From Phycisphaerae bacterium (GTDB taxonomy: Bacteria > Planctomycetota > Phycisphaerae > SM23-33), in NCBI GenBank assembly GCA_009783465.1, contig WRDM01000004.1:35231-99230 (forward strand): 64,000 nt of DNA, written 5' to 3'. A model generated the notes under the pieces. The model saw only the letters and a program-made list of their open reading frames with translations. It ran no database searches and had not been told where the DNA came from. Positions 4,892 to 64,000 of the stretch are shown here, piece after piece. A program made the translations under genes and the position numbers. How positions within the stretch are numbered: position 1 is the first letter of the stretch; every line of letters begins with the position of its first letter.

Positions 4892-6004
4892 TTAATCCCC
4901 GCGGCAAAGATTCGCGGCGATTTCTTTCAACCGTTTTATCGAATGCGACAAGAACTGTTTGTACGCGGAACAAAAATAGTTATTCGATTTCCCAGCCCCG
5001 TCCACGATCCGATTGCGCCGACATCCGCCGCGGCATAATCGGAAAAACTCACACGCCTTGCACCGATCAGGCCACCCGCGCGACGCATCCACGAACCGCG
5101 CGGAATTCCCATGCAAACCAAGGATCCCATCCGTCAGAATCGAACCCAGGCGGCACTCATCCAAAACATAAAAATCACAGGGATACACCGAGCCATCCGC
5201 TTCGATCACATACTGATTCTGGCACGTCCCCCGCATATCGCACGATTCCGTCGCGACTCCCACCATGTGCGCCAGATAATTCTCGAACATTCGTATGTAC
5301 GGCTGCTGCTGTTTACACCAATCGTCATACCACAGATCGAACAGCTCGCGCAAAAACAGGCCATAATCTTCAGGCGTGAGCGAAAACGCTTGGCCGCCCG
5401 GTTCTTCTCCCAATGGATCAAGACACGGAATAAACTGTAGATAACGAAACCCGCGTTCTTTGTAAAAATGATATATACGGTTAATATCCCGCGCGGTTTG
5501 GCGATTGACCACTGTGAGAATGTTATAGTCAACGTTCAACCGGTCGAACAGCCCGGCCGTGGCCATCACCCGGCCAAACGTGCCCTCCCCTGCCACGTTT
5601 ACACGGTTGATATTATGATGTTCCTCCAACCCATCCAACGACAGGCCGACCAAAAACTTATGATTGGCGAAAAACGTCGCCCATGGTTCCGTAACCGCAT
5701 ACCCATTTGTCTGAATGGTGTTCTGAATCTGAACATCATGGACATTATATTGTTTCTGCAAGTGAATAACCGACTCGAAAAATTCCAGCCCCGCAAGCGT
5801 CGGTTCACCGCCCTGAAAACCGAACGTGCATTGGCCGTGGGCGAACGCGAGAACTTTTTCCGTCAGAACGTCCAGCGTTTCGTGGCTCATCACGCCGAAA
5901 CTCGCCTGGTCCCGCTTGGCCATCTCGTCGCAATAAAAACAATACCGGCACCGCAGATTGCACAGGCCGGAGGCGGGTTTGATTAATACGCTGATTGGAG
6001 GCAT
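4892..6004 (-). CDS. Anaerobic sulfatase-maturating enzyme-like radical SAM/SPASM protein
   Basis: CNLRCRYCFYC radical SAM motif, GGEPTL, C-terminal Cys-rich SPASM region (CDFYVLDECRLG...CKACEFFRLCRGGCRRNR). Confidence 0.88.
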   Translation of the reverse strand: MPPISVLIKPASGLCNLRCRYCFYCDEMAKRDQASFGVMSHETLDVLTEKVLAFAHGQCTFGFQGGEPTLAGLEFFESVIHLQKQYNVHDVQIQNTIQTNGYAVTEPWATFFANHKFLVGLSLDGLEEHHNINRVNVAGEGTFGRVMATAGLFDRLNVDYNILTVVNRQTARDINRIYHFYKERGFRYLQFIPCLDPLGEEPGGQAFSLTPEDYGLFLRELFDLWYDDWCKQQQPYIRMFENYLAHMVGVATESCDMRGTCQNQYVIEADGSVYPCDFYVLDECRLGSILTDGILGLHGNSARFVDASRGWPDRCKACEFFRLCRGGCRRNRIVDGAGKSNNYFCSAYKQFLSHSIKRLKEIAANLCRGD

Positions 6005-6030
6005 GATCGTCGCCCAATATATATACCTGT

Positions 6031-6150
6031 CCGACTTCGCGAAGACCGAGCGGGATTACGCGGATTAACGGATTAAGGATTTTTCGCTCTGTACGACAAT
6101 CCTTTTAATCCTTACATCCGTGTAATCCCGCTCGGTCTTCGCGAAGTCGG
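6031..6150. repeat. Type B palindrome (B1)
   Basis: 29-bp perfect arms ccgacttcgcgaagaccgagcgggattac / gtaatcccgctcggtcttcgcgaagtcgg. Confidence 0.97.
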
Positions 6151-57566: not shown

Positions 57567-58214
57567 TCAGGAATCGACCGATGGGACAGACGCTGGATTA
57601 TGAATGTGAATGGACAGAGATTCCTTTTTCTCTTTACTGTTCAGTCTGGCCTGTTGTTGTAGATATAGCATGGCTACTTTTCGACGCCCCTCGTCGTTGA
57701 GCTTATTCAACTCGGCCCGTTCGACAGGTTTGTCTTCCGCTTCCTCAATCAAGAACGCCACGATCCGATCCGCTTCCTCTTGCGTAACACTGTCGGACGG
57801 ATCGTCTTCGCGATTATCCTCAATGCTTCTGCCAACCCACGTTTCCTCGGAATCGAGATTGTGATCATGGCCTTGATCGTGATCGTGACCGCTCTGGTCT
57901 TTTTGACCCATCCAATCTTTCAGCAATGGCGAATCATTGATGGCTCTGCTGATGGTCGAAGGTGCGCAGCCTACATGTGCAGCCAGTTTGCGCAGCGACG
58001 AGAACGACTTGCCGTTTGCGCGGATACGGAGAAGGCGATCCTGCACATCGCGCCAGTTCGCTTCGACCGCGCCGTCCTTGGGTGACCGGCTTTGTTTCGA
58101 CTGGCCGATCGGCGATAAATCGTTTTTGCCGGGACGATCACTTTTGTAAGCGCCACCTTCTATCAGCCAGGCAGGCAGAACCGGTGCCTCGCCAGGCGGA
58201 GCGGCCAACGACAA
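57567..58214 (-). CDS. Hypothetical HTH-containing protein
   Basis: 'SFSSLRKLAAHVGCAPSTISRAINDSPLLKDWMGQ' HTH-like. Confidence 0.5.
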   Translation of the reverse strand: MSLAAPPGEAPVLPAWLIEGGAYKSDRPGKNDLSPIGQSKQSRSPKDGAVEANWRDVQDRLLRIRANGKSFSSLRKLAAHVGCAPSTISRAINDSPLLKDWMGQKDQSGHDHDQGHDHNLDSEETWVGRSIEDNREDDPSDSVTQEEADRIVAFLIEEAEDKPVERAELNKLNDEGRRKVAMLYLQQQARLNSKEKKESLSIHIHNPASVPSVDS

Positions 58215-58821
58215 AACCCACAGCTACGCGGTGGGCACCAGCGGCGACTGCAACGCGCTGGGTCGGCTGATGCGTCGCGAAGCGTGCAAACTCAAATTCG
58301 ACCAGGCCAACCATCTCTACGCCGTCACCGACGGTGCCGAATGGATCGCAAGACAGTACGCCAAACAACTGCCGCTGGAACTACACGTTCTGGACTACTA
58401 CCACCTGCAGAACCATGTGATCGCCGCCGCCCAGGCCCTCTACGGCGAAGGCACAAAACAGTCCATCGCGTGGCGGGAAGACATGATGGGCTATGTGTGG
58501 AACCGGGGCTCGCTGGTGATGCTCGACCACCTGGGCCATTACCTGCAACGCCACCGCGAGGGTCCCAAACATGAAGCCCTCCTCTCGTTACGTGACTACG
58601 TGGCCAAACGGGTGAATATGACCGACTACCCCTCGTACCGCCAGATCGGCTACGACTGCGGCTCGGGCCCGACGGAATCGTTCTGCGGCACCCTGACCCG
58701 CCGCCTCAAAGGCCGCGGCATGCACTGGGACAAGGATAATGCCGAAGCCATCATGGCCTTGGGCAGCCTCTACTACTCCAACCTGTGGAACCACTACTGG
58801 AAAAAACAACGAGCCGCCTAA
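58201..58821 (+). pseudogene. 5'-truncated ISKra4-like transposase remnant
   Basis: YAVTDGAEWIARQYAKQLPLELHVLDYYHLQNHV ... GSGPTESFCGTLTRRLKGRGMHWDKDNAEAIMALGSLYYSNLWNHYW; N-terminal half absent. Confidence 0.75.
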
Positions 58822-60268: not shown

Positions 60269-60308
60269 TCTCGAACCCACGACCTACGCATTAAAAGTGC
60301 GTTGCCCA
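60269..60308 (-). other. Partial tRNA-Lys(TTT) sequence; probable att-site scar
   Basis: Reverse complement GATGGGCAACGCACTTTTAATGCGTAGGTCGTGGGTTCGAGA: anticodon arm ACGCA-CTTTTAA-TGCGT, variable loop AGGTC, T-stem GTGGG and T-loop, but no 3' T-stem/acceptor and no intact D arm. Confidence 0.75.
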
Positions 60309-60636
60309 TCACACGCAGATACAGAAAAATCAAAAACTTGCGCCCCAACAACTGAACCACTCACCGAAAAACTCACCGCCAGCGAAAAAACCGCCGAAAA
60401 ACAGGGCGAAAAACTGGTCGAAAACCTCACGGAAAAGCTCCTCGAAAAGTTCACCGAATCGCTCATCGAAAAACTCACCATCACCGAGCCACTCACCGCA
60501 CTACTGACCGCTTGGACAAACCCAACCACCCCAATCGACCCCAATCTCGCCACCATACTGACAACCTGGCCAACCCTACCCGACCCCATCAAAACCGCCA
60601 TCGCCACCATCGCCCAAACAACCCCCACCACACCGA

Positions 60637-63576
60637 CTACCTCACCCCCTGCCGCCGATTGACCAATGTGCGGAGGATGGTGTCCAGAACGGTATCGAGA
60701 TTTTTGGCAACATCCTGAGCGAGGAAGCGGAGGACGAAGTAGTGGTTTTCTTGGAGTAATGCGTCTTTGCGGCGGTCACGGCGGTAGGCGGCGGGGTCGT
60801 TCAGGTGTTGGTCGCCATCGAGTTCGATAGCGAAGCGGGCCACGGGGCACAACAGATCGACTTCCATTTTGCCCCAGCCGTCGAAGGCGATGGGCAGTTC
60901 GGCGTTCAGGTGGAACAGGCCCGCTGTTTGCGGCAGGGTCGCCAACCGGCGGTATAAAAACGCCTCCGTTGCGCTGCGGGCGCGAGTCACCTCGACCGCT
61001 TCGCGGTCTCCCAAAACCGCATCAACGTTCGTCACAATTGTTTCTGGCCTGGCGGCGTGGACGAACAGGTTGGCCAGGGGCGAATCCACGCCGTCGCAGA
61101 TGAGGCGGCGGACGCTGGCGGCGTAGTCTTGTTTCCATTGTGGATCGACCGGTAACGGGACATCGGCGGGCCAGCCGGGGACGGCGCTGGCGGGGAGGTG
61201 AATGCTGTAGCCGATGGCGTCATAGCCGCGACACCGCCGGTCGAACATTCGCGAGAGCATGGGCACGTTGAGGTCGGCGTAATCATAAATGCGAACCTCC
61301 CGCTTGCGGTCGTGCAGCCGGTGCAGTCGGCCCGCGTATTGGGCGACGGTGCCGCGCCAGGAGATCGGCAGCGTCAAAAACAGCGTGTCCAATCGGGCAT
61401 CATCAAACCCTTCGCCGATGTACCGCCCCGTCGCCAGCAACACGCGAGGTTCGTCGGCGGGAATCGACGCCAGCTGGGCGGACAGGGCGGCCAATTGTTT
61501 TTTGCCCATGCCGCCGCGCAGGACAATCACATGTTGAACCTCCGGTGTTAGCCGCTCGGCCAGCCGCTCCAGATGATCGGTGCGTTCCGTGAGCACGACC
61601 GGCGAGCGGCCTTCACGAACGGCCTGCACGACATCCTGACAAATCATGCCGTTGCGAACGTTGTCGGCAATCAGATCGCCGTACAAATCCTGGAACTGCA
61701 CGCGGACATCCGGGGCCGCCTCCGTTCGCGGGAAGAAGCCCGTCGGACGGACGAAAACCGAATGGGCAAAGGGCCGGGCGAGGGCCTGGGCTTTGGCGTC
61801 AACGCGATGTCGCACCGGCCCGCACTGCATGAAGATAATCGGGTGATGGCCGTCCTTGCGGGCCACGGTGGCGGACAGGCCCGTGACGTATTTCGCCTTC
61901 GCGCGGCGTGCGACCTGTTCGAAACTCTGGGCCGACAGATGGTGGCACTCGTCAACGATGAGTTGGCCATACTCGCCGACTCGATCGTCCACGACGCCTT
62001 TGCGAACCAAACTTTGAATGACGGCGACGTCCAGCGAGCCAGTCGATTTCTTCCGGCCGCCGCCGATTCGGCCAACGGCGTTTGGATGCAAATTCAGAAA
62101 TGTCGCCAAGCGCTCTGCCCATTGTTCCAACAGTTGTCGGCGGTGCACGAGAACCAATGTGTTGACGCGGCGCTGCGCGATCAGCCATGCCGCCAGGACC
62201 GTTTTGCCGAACGCCGTCGTCGCCGACAGGACGCCCGTGTCGTGCGCCAGCATCGCTTCGGCGACGGGTTGTTGTTCAGGCCGTAATTCGCCGTGGAAGG
62301 TCACATCCAACGGCTGGCCCTGGCAACGTTCATCGCGAAGGGTGTGTCCAATTCGCAGGCCGTCCAGCAATTCCCGCACGTCGTCCAGACACCCGCGAGG
62401 CAGGCCTATGTGTTTGGGAAAATCTTCCGCACAGGCGATGACACGAGGCTTGTCGTATGTGGGCAGCCGCATCGCCTGGGCCTTGTAAAACTCGGGATTC
62501 TGAAACGCCGCCAGCCGCGTCAACCGATTGCGAAGCGGCGCGGATAAGTCAGCCTTGGCGATGTAAATTTGATCGCCCAACACCAGTTCCAGACTTTCCG
62601 GCAGCGGCCCGGCGACGGGCGGCTCCGCGTGTCGCCGCGACGGTGGCGTCGTCCAAGGCATGCCTTCGTCCTCGTCATCTTCCGGTAGTGACAGCCGCAC
62701 TCCCACAACCCGTCCCTTGCCTTCCGCCGCACGGACGACCTCCTCCGCCCGCGCCCTGCTGATCTTTTCAATCGCCGCCAGGAATGCCCATTGGTCGGAA
62801 TAGGGTGTAAAATCGGCGGCCATATCTACAAAAACACTGTTCCCAAACTCGCGAGGCCCTTTCTGCAATGGCAACGCGATCAAATTCCCGAACCCGCCTC
62901 TGGGCAGCGTGTCTTGATTGGGAAAGAACCGATCATACGAATCCAACCCAACATCAGGCCGCCGCTCCATCGTCTCAGTCAACAAGTGCGCCCCAAGTTT
63001 CCGCGCCAACACGGCGGGGATTGCCTGCTCAAAAAACATCCACACATGCCCGCCGTTCCCGCTACGCGACCGTTCCACCACAGCCGGCATCTCCGCCTGC
63101 CGACACGTCTCCAGAAACGCGGCCACATCCTCCCGCCAATTCGTTTTGTCAAAATCCGCCGCCAGAAAACAGCATGTCTCGTCCAGCAGCATCGGATAAA
63201 CACCCATGACGAAATCCCGTCCAAAACCATCGCAACCGGACAAGTGCCATCGAATCACATCATCCGTAACCGCCAAAAACCGCCGATTCACACATTCCGC
63301 ACACTTAACCGCCCGCTTGTCACACACCCCGCGAACCCACTCATTCCCACACGCCGGCGCATAACCACACTTCCCAGTTTTCCGACTCTCAAACCGCCGC
63401 GGCCACACATCCTCCCGCCCACGAAACAACGACCGAAACAACGCAATCTTCATTTCCGGCGCAGAATGGTGATTCACCCCGGCGAAACGGTGATCCACGG
63501 CAGCAGTTGGCCCGCCCAGAGGCCATTGCTCACCATCCAAAGGCGCGTTCGAGAGGTTATTGTCAGATCGTTCCAT
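60637..63576 (-). CDS. TOTE-type conflict protein: AEP-primase-like + SF2 helicase + DUF559-like endonuclease
   Basis: CFLAADFDKTNW...GGHVWMFFE (primase-like), SATTAFGKTVLAAWL / IVDECHHLS / QYAGRLHR (helicase), C-terminal KMEVDLLCPVARFAIELDGDQHLNDPAAYRRDRRKDALLQENHYFVLRFLAQDV. Confidence 0.85.
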   Translation of the reverse strand: MERSDNNLSNAPLDGEQWPLGGPTAAVDHRFAGVNHHSAPEMKIALFRSLFRGREDVWPRRFESRKTGKCGYAPACGNEWVRGVCDKRAVKCAECVNRRFLAVTDDVIRWHLSGCDGFGRDFVMGVYPMLLDETCCFLAADFDKTNWREDVAAFLETCRQAEMPAVVERSRSGNGGHVWMFFEQAIPAVLARKLGAHLLTETMERRPDVGLDSYDRFFPNQDTLPRGGFGNLIALPLQKGPREFGNSVFVDMAADFTPYSDQWAFLAAIEKISRARAEEVVRAAEGKGRVVGVRLSLPEDDEDEGMPWTTPPSRRHAEPPVAGPLPESLELVLGDQIYIAKADLSAPLRNRLTRLAAFQNPEFYKAQAMRLPTYDKPRVIACAEDFPKHIGLPRGCLDDVRELLDGLRIGHTLRDERCQGQPLDVTFHGELRPEQQPVAEAMLAHDTGVLSATTAFGKTVLAAWLIAQRRVNTLVLVHRRQLLEQWAERLATFLNLHPNAVGRIGGGRKKSTGSLDVAVIQSLVRKGVVDDRVGEYGQLIVDECHHLSAQSFEQVARRAKAKYVTGLSATVARKDGHHPIIFMQCGPVRHRVDAKAQALARPFAHSVFVRPTGFFPRTEAAPDVRVQFQDLYGDLIADNVRNGMICQDVVQAVREGRSPVVLTERTDHLERLAERLTPEVQHVIVLRGGMGKKQLAALSAQLASIPADEPRVLLATGRYIGEGFDDARLDTLFLTLPISWRGTVAQYAGRLHRLHDRKREVRIYDYADLNVPMLSRMFDRRCRGYDAIGYSIHLPASAVPGWPADVPLPVDPQWKQDYAASVRRLICDGVDSPLANLFVHAARPETIVTNVDAVLGDREAVEVTRARSATEAFLYRRLATLPQTAGLFHLNAELPIAFDGWGKMEVDLLCPVARFAIELDGDQHLNDPAAYRRDRRKDALLQENHYFVLRFLAQDVAKNLDTVLDTILRTLVNRRQGVR

Positions 63577-63665
63577 ACGGAGATTCTGTTCGGATTCCAG
63601 TTCGAAATAATACTGCGAAATCAGGTACACGTCACGTTGTTATCGAATCTGACCCCCGACATTTC

Positions 63666-64000
63666 CATGAAAGTTTCGATGCCGGCTTGGTGCCCGATGC
63701 CGATCTGAGCGACCTCGACGAAGCCGCCATTGCCGATTACCGCCAGACCCGGGCCGAAGCCAACCCGATCGCCGAAGAGTTGCGATGGCCCGACCTCGAA
63801 CTGTTGCAGTCGTTGAAGGCGGTGCGTCGCGACCCGGCAGGGAATTGGAAACCCACGGTCGCTGGCATGTTATTGTTCGGAAAATCGGTGGCCTTGCGAC
63901 GCACGTTTCCGATGACGCGCGTGGATTACATCCGCGTCCCAGGCAGGGAGTGGATACCGCATCCAGAACGCCGTTTCGATACGGTCGAACTGCGAGCCCC
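63666..64000 (+). CDS. AlbA_2-type ATP-binding protein, N-terminus apparently missing, 3' end beyond window
   Basis: HESFDAGLVPDADLSDLDEAAIADYRQTRAEANPIAEELRWPDLELLQSLKAVRRDPAGNWKPTVAGMLLFGKSVALRRTFPMTRVDYIRV. Confidence 0.65.

Follow-up and report, generated by a model that had tools for sequence, protein, structure and literature searches.

A tRNA-Lys(TTT) fragment joined to an orphan integrase tail in a Phycisphaerae genome: a probable scar of an element with attP inside its integrase gene

Only a few mobile elements are described to carry an att site within the gene of their own integrase, and a review counts them as very few (PMC4701971). In the Myxococcus phage Mx8, attP lies within the coding sequence of intP, and integration exchanges the C-terminal 112 residues for 13, which leaves an integrase that is less active or altered in its specificity (PMC4701971, PMC6070905). 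In streptococcal ICEs that insert into rumA by means of a serine integrase, the att site is also within the integrase gene and the C-termini differ between integrated and excised form (PMC4701971). Archaeal SSV-type integrases are split upon integration in such a way that Int(N) is parted from the catalytic Int(C), and disruption of the own gene by an integrase was reviewed as exclusively archaeal (PMC8371274). Finally, tRNA islands of the Islander type, 2-200 kb long, are delimited by an intact tRNA or tmRNA gene and a displaced fragment of it, with crossover centred on the anticodon; an integrase gene reading through attP is an exception there, known from Mx8 and SSV (PMC4383910).

Here we analyse a stretch of 64,000 nucleotides from a Phycisphaerae bacterium (the window), in which a broken tRNA-Lys(TTT) adjoins an orphan C-terminal tail of an integrase. 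Very probably, the fragment and the tail together represent an eroded, attL-like end, on the tail side, of an element whose attP was situated inside its own tyrosine-integrase gene. Such elements would resemble Mx8 in having attP in the coding sequence of a tyrosine integrase, the C-terminus of which is replaced upon integration. Unlike Mx8, which is one phage, they are many, use many tRNA targets throughout the phylum and are characterized by a conserved tail domain and in-frame arm-like repeats. With the SSV-type suicidal integrases they would share an att core of tRNA origin inside a gene that is split by integration, whereas the catalytic domain stays whole here and the C-terminal tail alone is lost. 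As in Islander-type islands, one end is formed by an intact tRNA or tmRNA and the opposite end by a displaced fragment; in contrast to these, the integrase reading through attP appears to be the rule among paired tail-bearing elements. The rumA ICEs are comparable in the att site inside the integrase gene and in the form-dependent C-terminus; they employ a serine recombinase and a protein-gene target, whereas tyrosine recombinases and tRNA or tmRNA targets are found here. Neither the tail nor its distribution over a bacterial phylum is described in the open-licence literature that we searched. While attP within an integrase gene is as such known from Mx8, its phylum-wide embedding there together with a conserved tail is new.

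The broken tRNA and its neighbourhood

Features of the locus are listed in Table 1.

Table 1. Annotated features around the tRNA fragment (coordinates of the window)
Feature	Position	Strand	Remarks
nhaA	58909..60243	+	Pfam PF06965; chromosomal flank; ends 26 nt before the fragment
Broken tRNA-Lys(TTT), putative att core	60269..60308	-	D-stem 3' edge, anticodon arm, variable loop, T-stem 5' strand, T-loop
Orphan integrase C-terminal tail	60309..60662	+	117 aa and stop; continues in an open frame from the antisense tRNA core; lacks a good own start codon
CTTGC motif	60337..60341	+	+28 after the core; recurs in paired elements
Putative arm-type direct repeat CTCACCGAAAAACTCACCG	60351..60385	+	52 and 64 nt after the core
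Conserved tail domain LAxxxxxWPxLPxxIKxxI	60528..60626	+	profile A1, E 5.2e-14
TOTE-type primase-helicase-DUF559 gene	60637..63630	-	PF22548, PF04851, PF04480; first gene on the element side
ORF running off the contig end beside the TOTE gene	63507-64000		no Pfam match

A preceding sequence-only reading had presented the minus strand as tRNA-Lys arms broken off at both ends. Its quoted sequence was reproduced when we re-read 60308-60269, and the assignment is correct: positions 60270-60304 (minus strand) are identical in 35 of 35 nucleotides to positions 61 to 27 of a complete tRNA-Lys(TTT), located at 5956-6031 of a phage-like IMG/VR contig (L046). In relatives the block is found with 1-3 mismatches in 35 bp in 17 genomes, always inside complete tRNA-Lys(TTT) genes, and a reversed pattern used as control gave zero matches. 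The 5' side of the tRNA is lost within the D arm and the 3' side directly past the T-loop. Both flanks are of non-tRNA character; GAAGC on the left of the T-loop is not the T-stem partner of GTGGG, and the sequence on the right of the D stem does not continue the tRNA either. The T-stem 3' strand and the acceptor are missing and neither end of the tRNA is present, whereas an end is kept in most tail loci of relatives. This lowers the reading of the locus as an intact attL, not its reading as an att relic. As expected of a partial tRNA, the fragment was not scored as tRNA by ARAGORN and Rfam.

In the own genome assembly, which is 70% complete, the block proved to be unique. The intact tRNA-Lys(TTT), which the same reading had suggested looking for, is absent from the 25 tRNA matches of this assembly, Lys(CTT) being among them. 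An exact search with 34 bp gave no match in GTDB contigs.

Another explanation of such a remnant would be an ordinary pseudogene, that is, a tRNA-Lys beside nhaA that was disrupted by a deletion or by IS activity, independently of any integrative element. The loss of both tRNA ends, the lack of another tRNA-Lys(TTT) in the assembly and transposase-like remnants close by (58150-58818, by eye) are in favour of it. We nevertheless regard it as quite improbable, since a tail with arm-like repeats begins exactly at the edge of the core, as it does in dozens of att-core loci, and since the nhaA neighbourhoods of relatives are devoid of tRNA-Lys. Two facing ORFs at 57567-58821, beside nhaA, resemble transposase-related remnants (one with a weak HTH match), and they are a sign of rearrangement. 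Synteny of nhaA, suggested earlier as a check, was compared in relatives. Two relatives have neither a tRNA nor a tail adjoining nhaA, and this absence of an ancestral tRNA neighbour has to be counted against the attL-like end that we favour; across relatives, the synteny is too sporadic to define an ancestral site.

On the other side, the TOTE gene (AEP primase, helicase, DUF559) shares approximately 25 bp of its 3' end with the tail ORF, which is encoded on the opposite strand. The adjacency of the TOTE gene could speak for a functional small RNA or a tRNA decoy, for example one linked to the TOTE conflict gene. We find this hardly credible: folding gave the fragment z values of -0.09 to -0.59 and hence no excess of RNA structure, and the TOTE genes of relatives have no tail or Lys core alongside. 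For the latter reason, TOTE was also rejected as a constant partner of the tail.

An orphan integrase tail and its repeats

The strongest evidence for an integration scar is the tail with arm-like repeats that adjoins the fragment, which was overlooked by the sequence-only reading. The plus-strand frame that runs antisense through the fragment continues to 60662 with the peptide ...LEPTTYALKVRCPSHADTEKSKTCAPTTEPLTEKLT...NLATILTTWPTLPDPIKTAIATIAQTT...; it is open throughout, and the conserved tail domain follows the core in frame. The window tail matches no Pfam family, and its profile gave no convincing match among solved structures. Homologues of its C-terminal part occur at seven places of the own genome and in 39 of 150 relatives; profile A1, applied to a sample of 392 genomes from across the phylum, has matches in 99. 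Most of these matches are short ORFs, many of them in frame out of a tRNA fragment. A tRNA-like fragment lies within 260 nt upstream of 45 of the 74 distinct tails, as compared to one of 168 control windows taken at these loci, and these fragments mostly span from one tRNA end to the anticodon arm. No tRNA fragment was recognisable by search at the other 29 tails, including, by eye, four of the other six tails of the own genome, which we count against our explanation. The mismatch rates of the tail domain at codon positions 1, 2 and 3 are 0.39, 0.24 and 0.60, and the domain thus varies as a translated protein would.

The six further orphan tails of the own genome are situated on contigs C27, C3, C6 and C12 (L077, L078, L080 and L081), C5 (L082) and C14 (L079) of G000. 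The four without a visible tRNA fragment are close copies with LTVKLT repeats, and their shared part starts near ATCCGAAAT.

A further feature by which we define the family of tail-bearing elements is direct repeats approximately 50-75 nt past the core. In the window, CTCACC repeats begin +52 and +64 nt from the core and further imperfect copies are present at 60453-60517. Repetitive peptides near the cores (for example LTEKLT, LGALLGAF, CLPECLPD, AYKPAYK) are encoded by such direct DNA repeats. In 12 of 16 pairs, the best block that the integrase side of an element has in common with its tail side scores higher than at least 29 of 30 comparisons between different elements; all 30 are beaten in 11 of the 16, and in G025 one of the 30 reaches the score. 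The shared blocks mostly lie 120-155 bp ahead of the core and 46-78 bp past it, and the window repeats keep the same distance from the core as the repeats common to both att sides in paired elements. By their position, the repeats look like arm-type sites of attP to which the integrase might bind. In 7 of 16 pairs, a CTTRC motif is located between +28 and +35. Searched with the pattern of arm repeats, viral contigs and relatives provided no integrase partner.

Elements with both ends in relatives

Twenty-two elements with both ends were found in relatives, in which a tyrosine integrase reads into an intact tRNA or tmRNA and the same core with a tail is present at the opposite end. The set comprises 16 tails with an integrase ORF downstream and six elements in well-assembled genomes, some on a single contig; the integrase ORFs belong to PF00589 in those of the first 16 pairs that were tested. 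The elements are 4.5-33 kb long. Twenty of the 22 have a recognisable intact tRNA at the end that carries the integrase (Lys-CTT, Lys-TTT, Ala, Gly, Arg, Cys, Glu, Leu, Ser, Thr), and the core of the remaining two resembles, by eye, the 3' end of tmRNA. A complete tRNA was recognised at the tail end in 2 of 22 only. One further candidate (G067C76) was rejected as a pair, its sole shared block being an arm-like repeat.

If the two ends are rejoined across the core, integrase ORF and tail are in the same frame and the joined ORF is open into the tail in 21 of 22 elements, when about one in three would be expected per pair; the single exception is G057C4, both ends of which were found out of frame. 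This one open frame of integrase, core and tail, the arrangement of Mx8, argues that attP is within the integrase gene. In the integrated form, a new C-terminus of 1 to about 250 residues replaces 52-104 residues. The catalytic domain is not cut from the N-terminal part as in SSV-type splitting: in G098, PF00589 covers residues 195-363 of 484, wholly in the integrase-side part. The rejoined ORF is known from reconstruction, except for one decayed copy (G109, L064), in which the integrase end, a tRNA-Lys(CTT) core and the tail are still contiguous. That contig was considered as a circle and rejected, having no terminal overlap. A different arrangement is seen in G027 (L066, contig G027:C13), whose integrase has the tail and no internal core, with a tRNA-Leu about 217 nt downstream; in this arrangement, an enzyme of this kind would not swap its C-terminus. 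Comparison of the G098 integrase with plasmid, phage and viral collections retrieved distant recombinases only, or nothing.

One of the paired elements (G105) is inserted in tRNA-Lys(TTT), the target of the window, and we infer that the window copy originated from tRNA-Lys(TTT) by the route of the relatives' elements. The earlier proposals that the tRNA remnant is an att-type integration scar and that an element boundary lies between nhaA and the TOTE gene both gain from these data: an integrase-derived tail lies on the right of the fragment, and its pattern recurs with both ends in the 22 elements. The integrase sought near the scar turned up in these relatives and not in the window, where no integrase, second core or intact tRNA-Lys(TTT) was seen up to the contig end, a lack that counts against our explanation of this copy. 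The integrase end of this element is out of sight because the contig stops at window position 64000. On a 3,080-bp contig of the same genome (G000:C66; L139, L103) there is an integrase similar to the G098 enzyme, cut off by the contig end ahead of its att region; to name it the partner of the window scar would be speculation.

A fresh attL should keep the 3' end of the tRNA, and the lack of this outer end counts against an attL in its original state; it implies that the window copy is eroded or rearranged. Another origin has to be weighed at this point. A relic in attP form (integrase, core and tail) could have been moved in by some other recombination and then have lost its integrase half by deletion, with no attL ever made here. 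The tRNA block short at both sides, nhaA not being a normal neighbour of a tRNA and the decayed G109 copy, which keeps all three parts side by side, would agree with this. In that case, the tRNA 3' end would be expected in the attP core, as it is in G109, and no integrase sequence or integrase-side arm repeats are present between nhaA and the core. Because attL orphans are also far commoner, we consider such a relic unlikely and retain the eroded tail-side end as the better explanation.

A possible model and its consequences

We propose the following course of events. In the excised circle, a single frame would contain the catalytic domain, arm repeats, the tRNA-derived core, arm repeats again and the conserved C-terminal tail. 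Crossover would take place in the anticodon region of the host tRNA, and the integrase-side half-core would be rejoined to the host tRNA. At the integrase end, the tRNA would then be whole and the integrase would have acquired a new C-terminus, and at the opposite end the old tRNA stump would be stranded beside the orphan tail. The swap of the tail presumably lowers or redirects the activity of the integrase and, by analogy with Mx8, may give integration its direction. As for the more general proposal, that integrases across the phylum use their own gene as attP and that removal of the tail upon insertion is a switch between integrating and resident state, leaving tail-tRNA scars behind, we are evenly divided.

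The arrangement deserves attention for several reasons. Firstly, it recurs through a bacterial phylum at many tRNA targets, with a conserved tail that would be swapped off, and it suggests a testable way in which integration could be made directional. Secondly, it would explain why integrase genes end in tRNA-derived peptides. Thirdly, the tail can serve as a sequence tag for ends and relics of elements in fragmented metagenome assemblies. For five tails in well-assembled genomes, no recognisable integrase was present in the 18-39 kb examined downstream, so that scars like that of the window may be common.

Cargo was examined in two paired elements and looks like defence-type genes in both. 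The element of G098 (L092) contains an HKD/Snf2 helicase and a type IIG restriction-methylation enzyme, and that of G104 (L083) a SoFic-like Fic protein beside a helicase-like protein, with a weak match to type III restriction. The tail tag should therefore help to find defence cargo. The TOTE gene of the window, by its position, is probably cargo of the element as well, and it would fit with the genes of these two elements.

Further, several tails are located within about 30 kb of one contig in G006:C134 (L106, L126) and in G120:C10 (L100), which suggests stacked or successive insertions.
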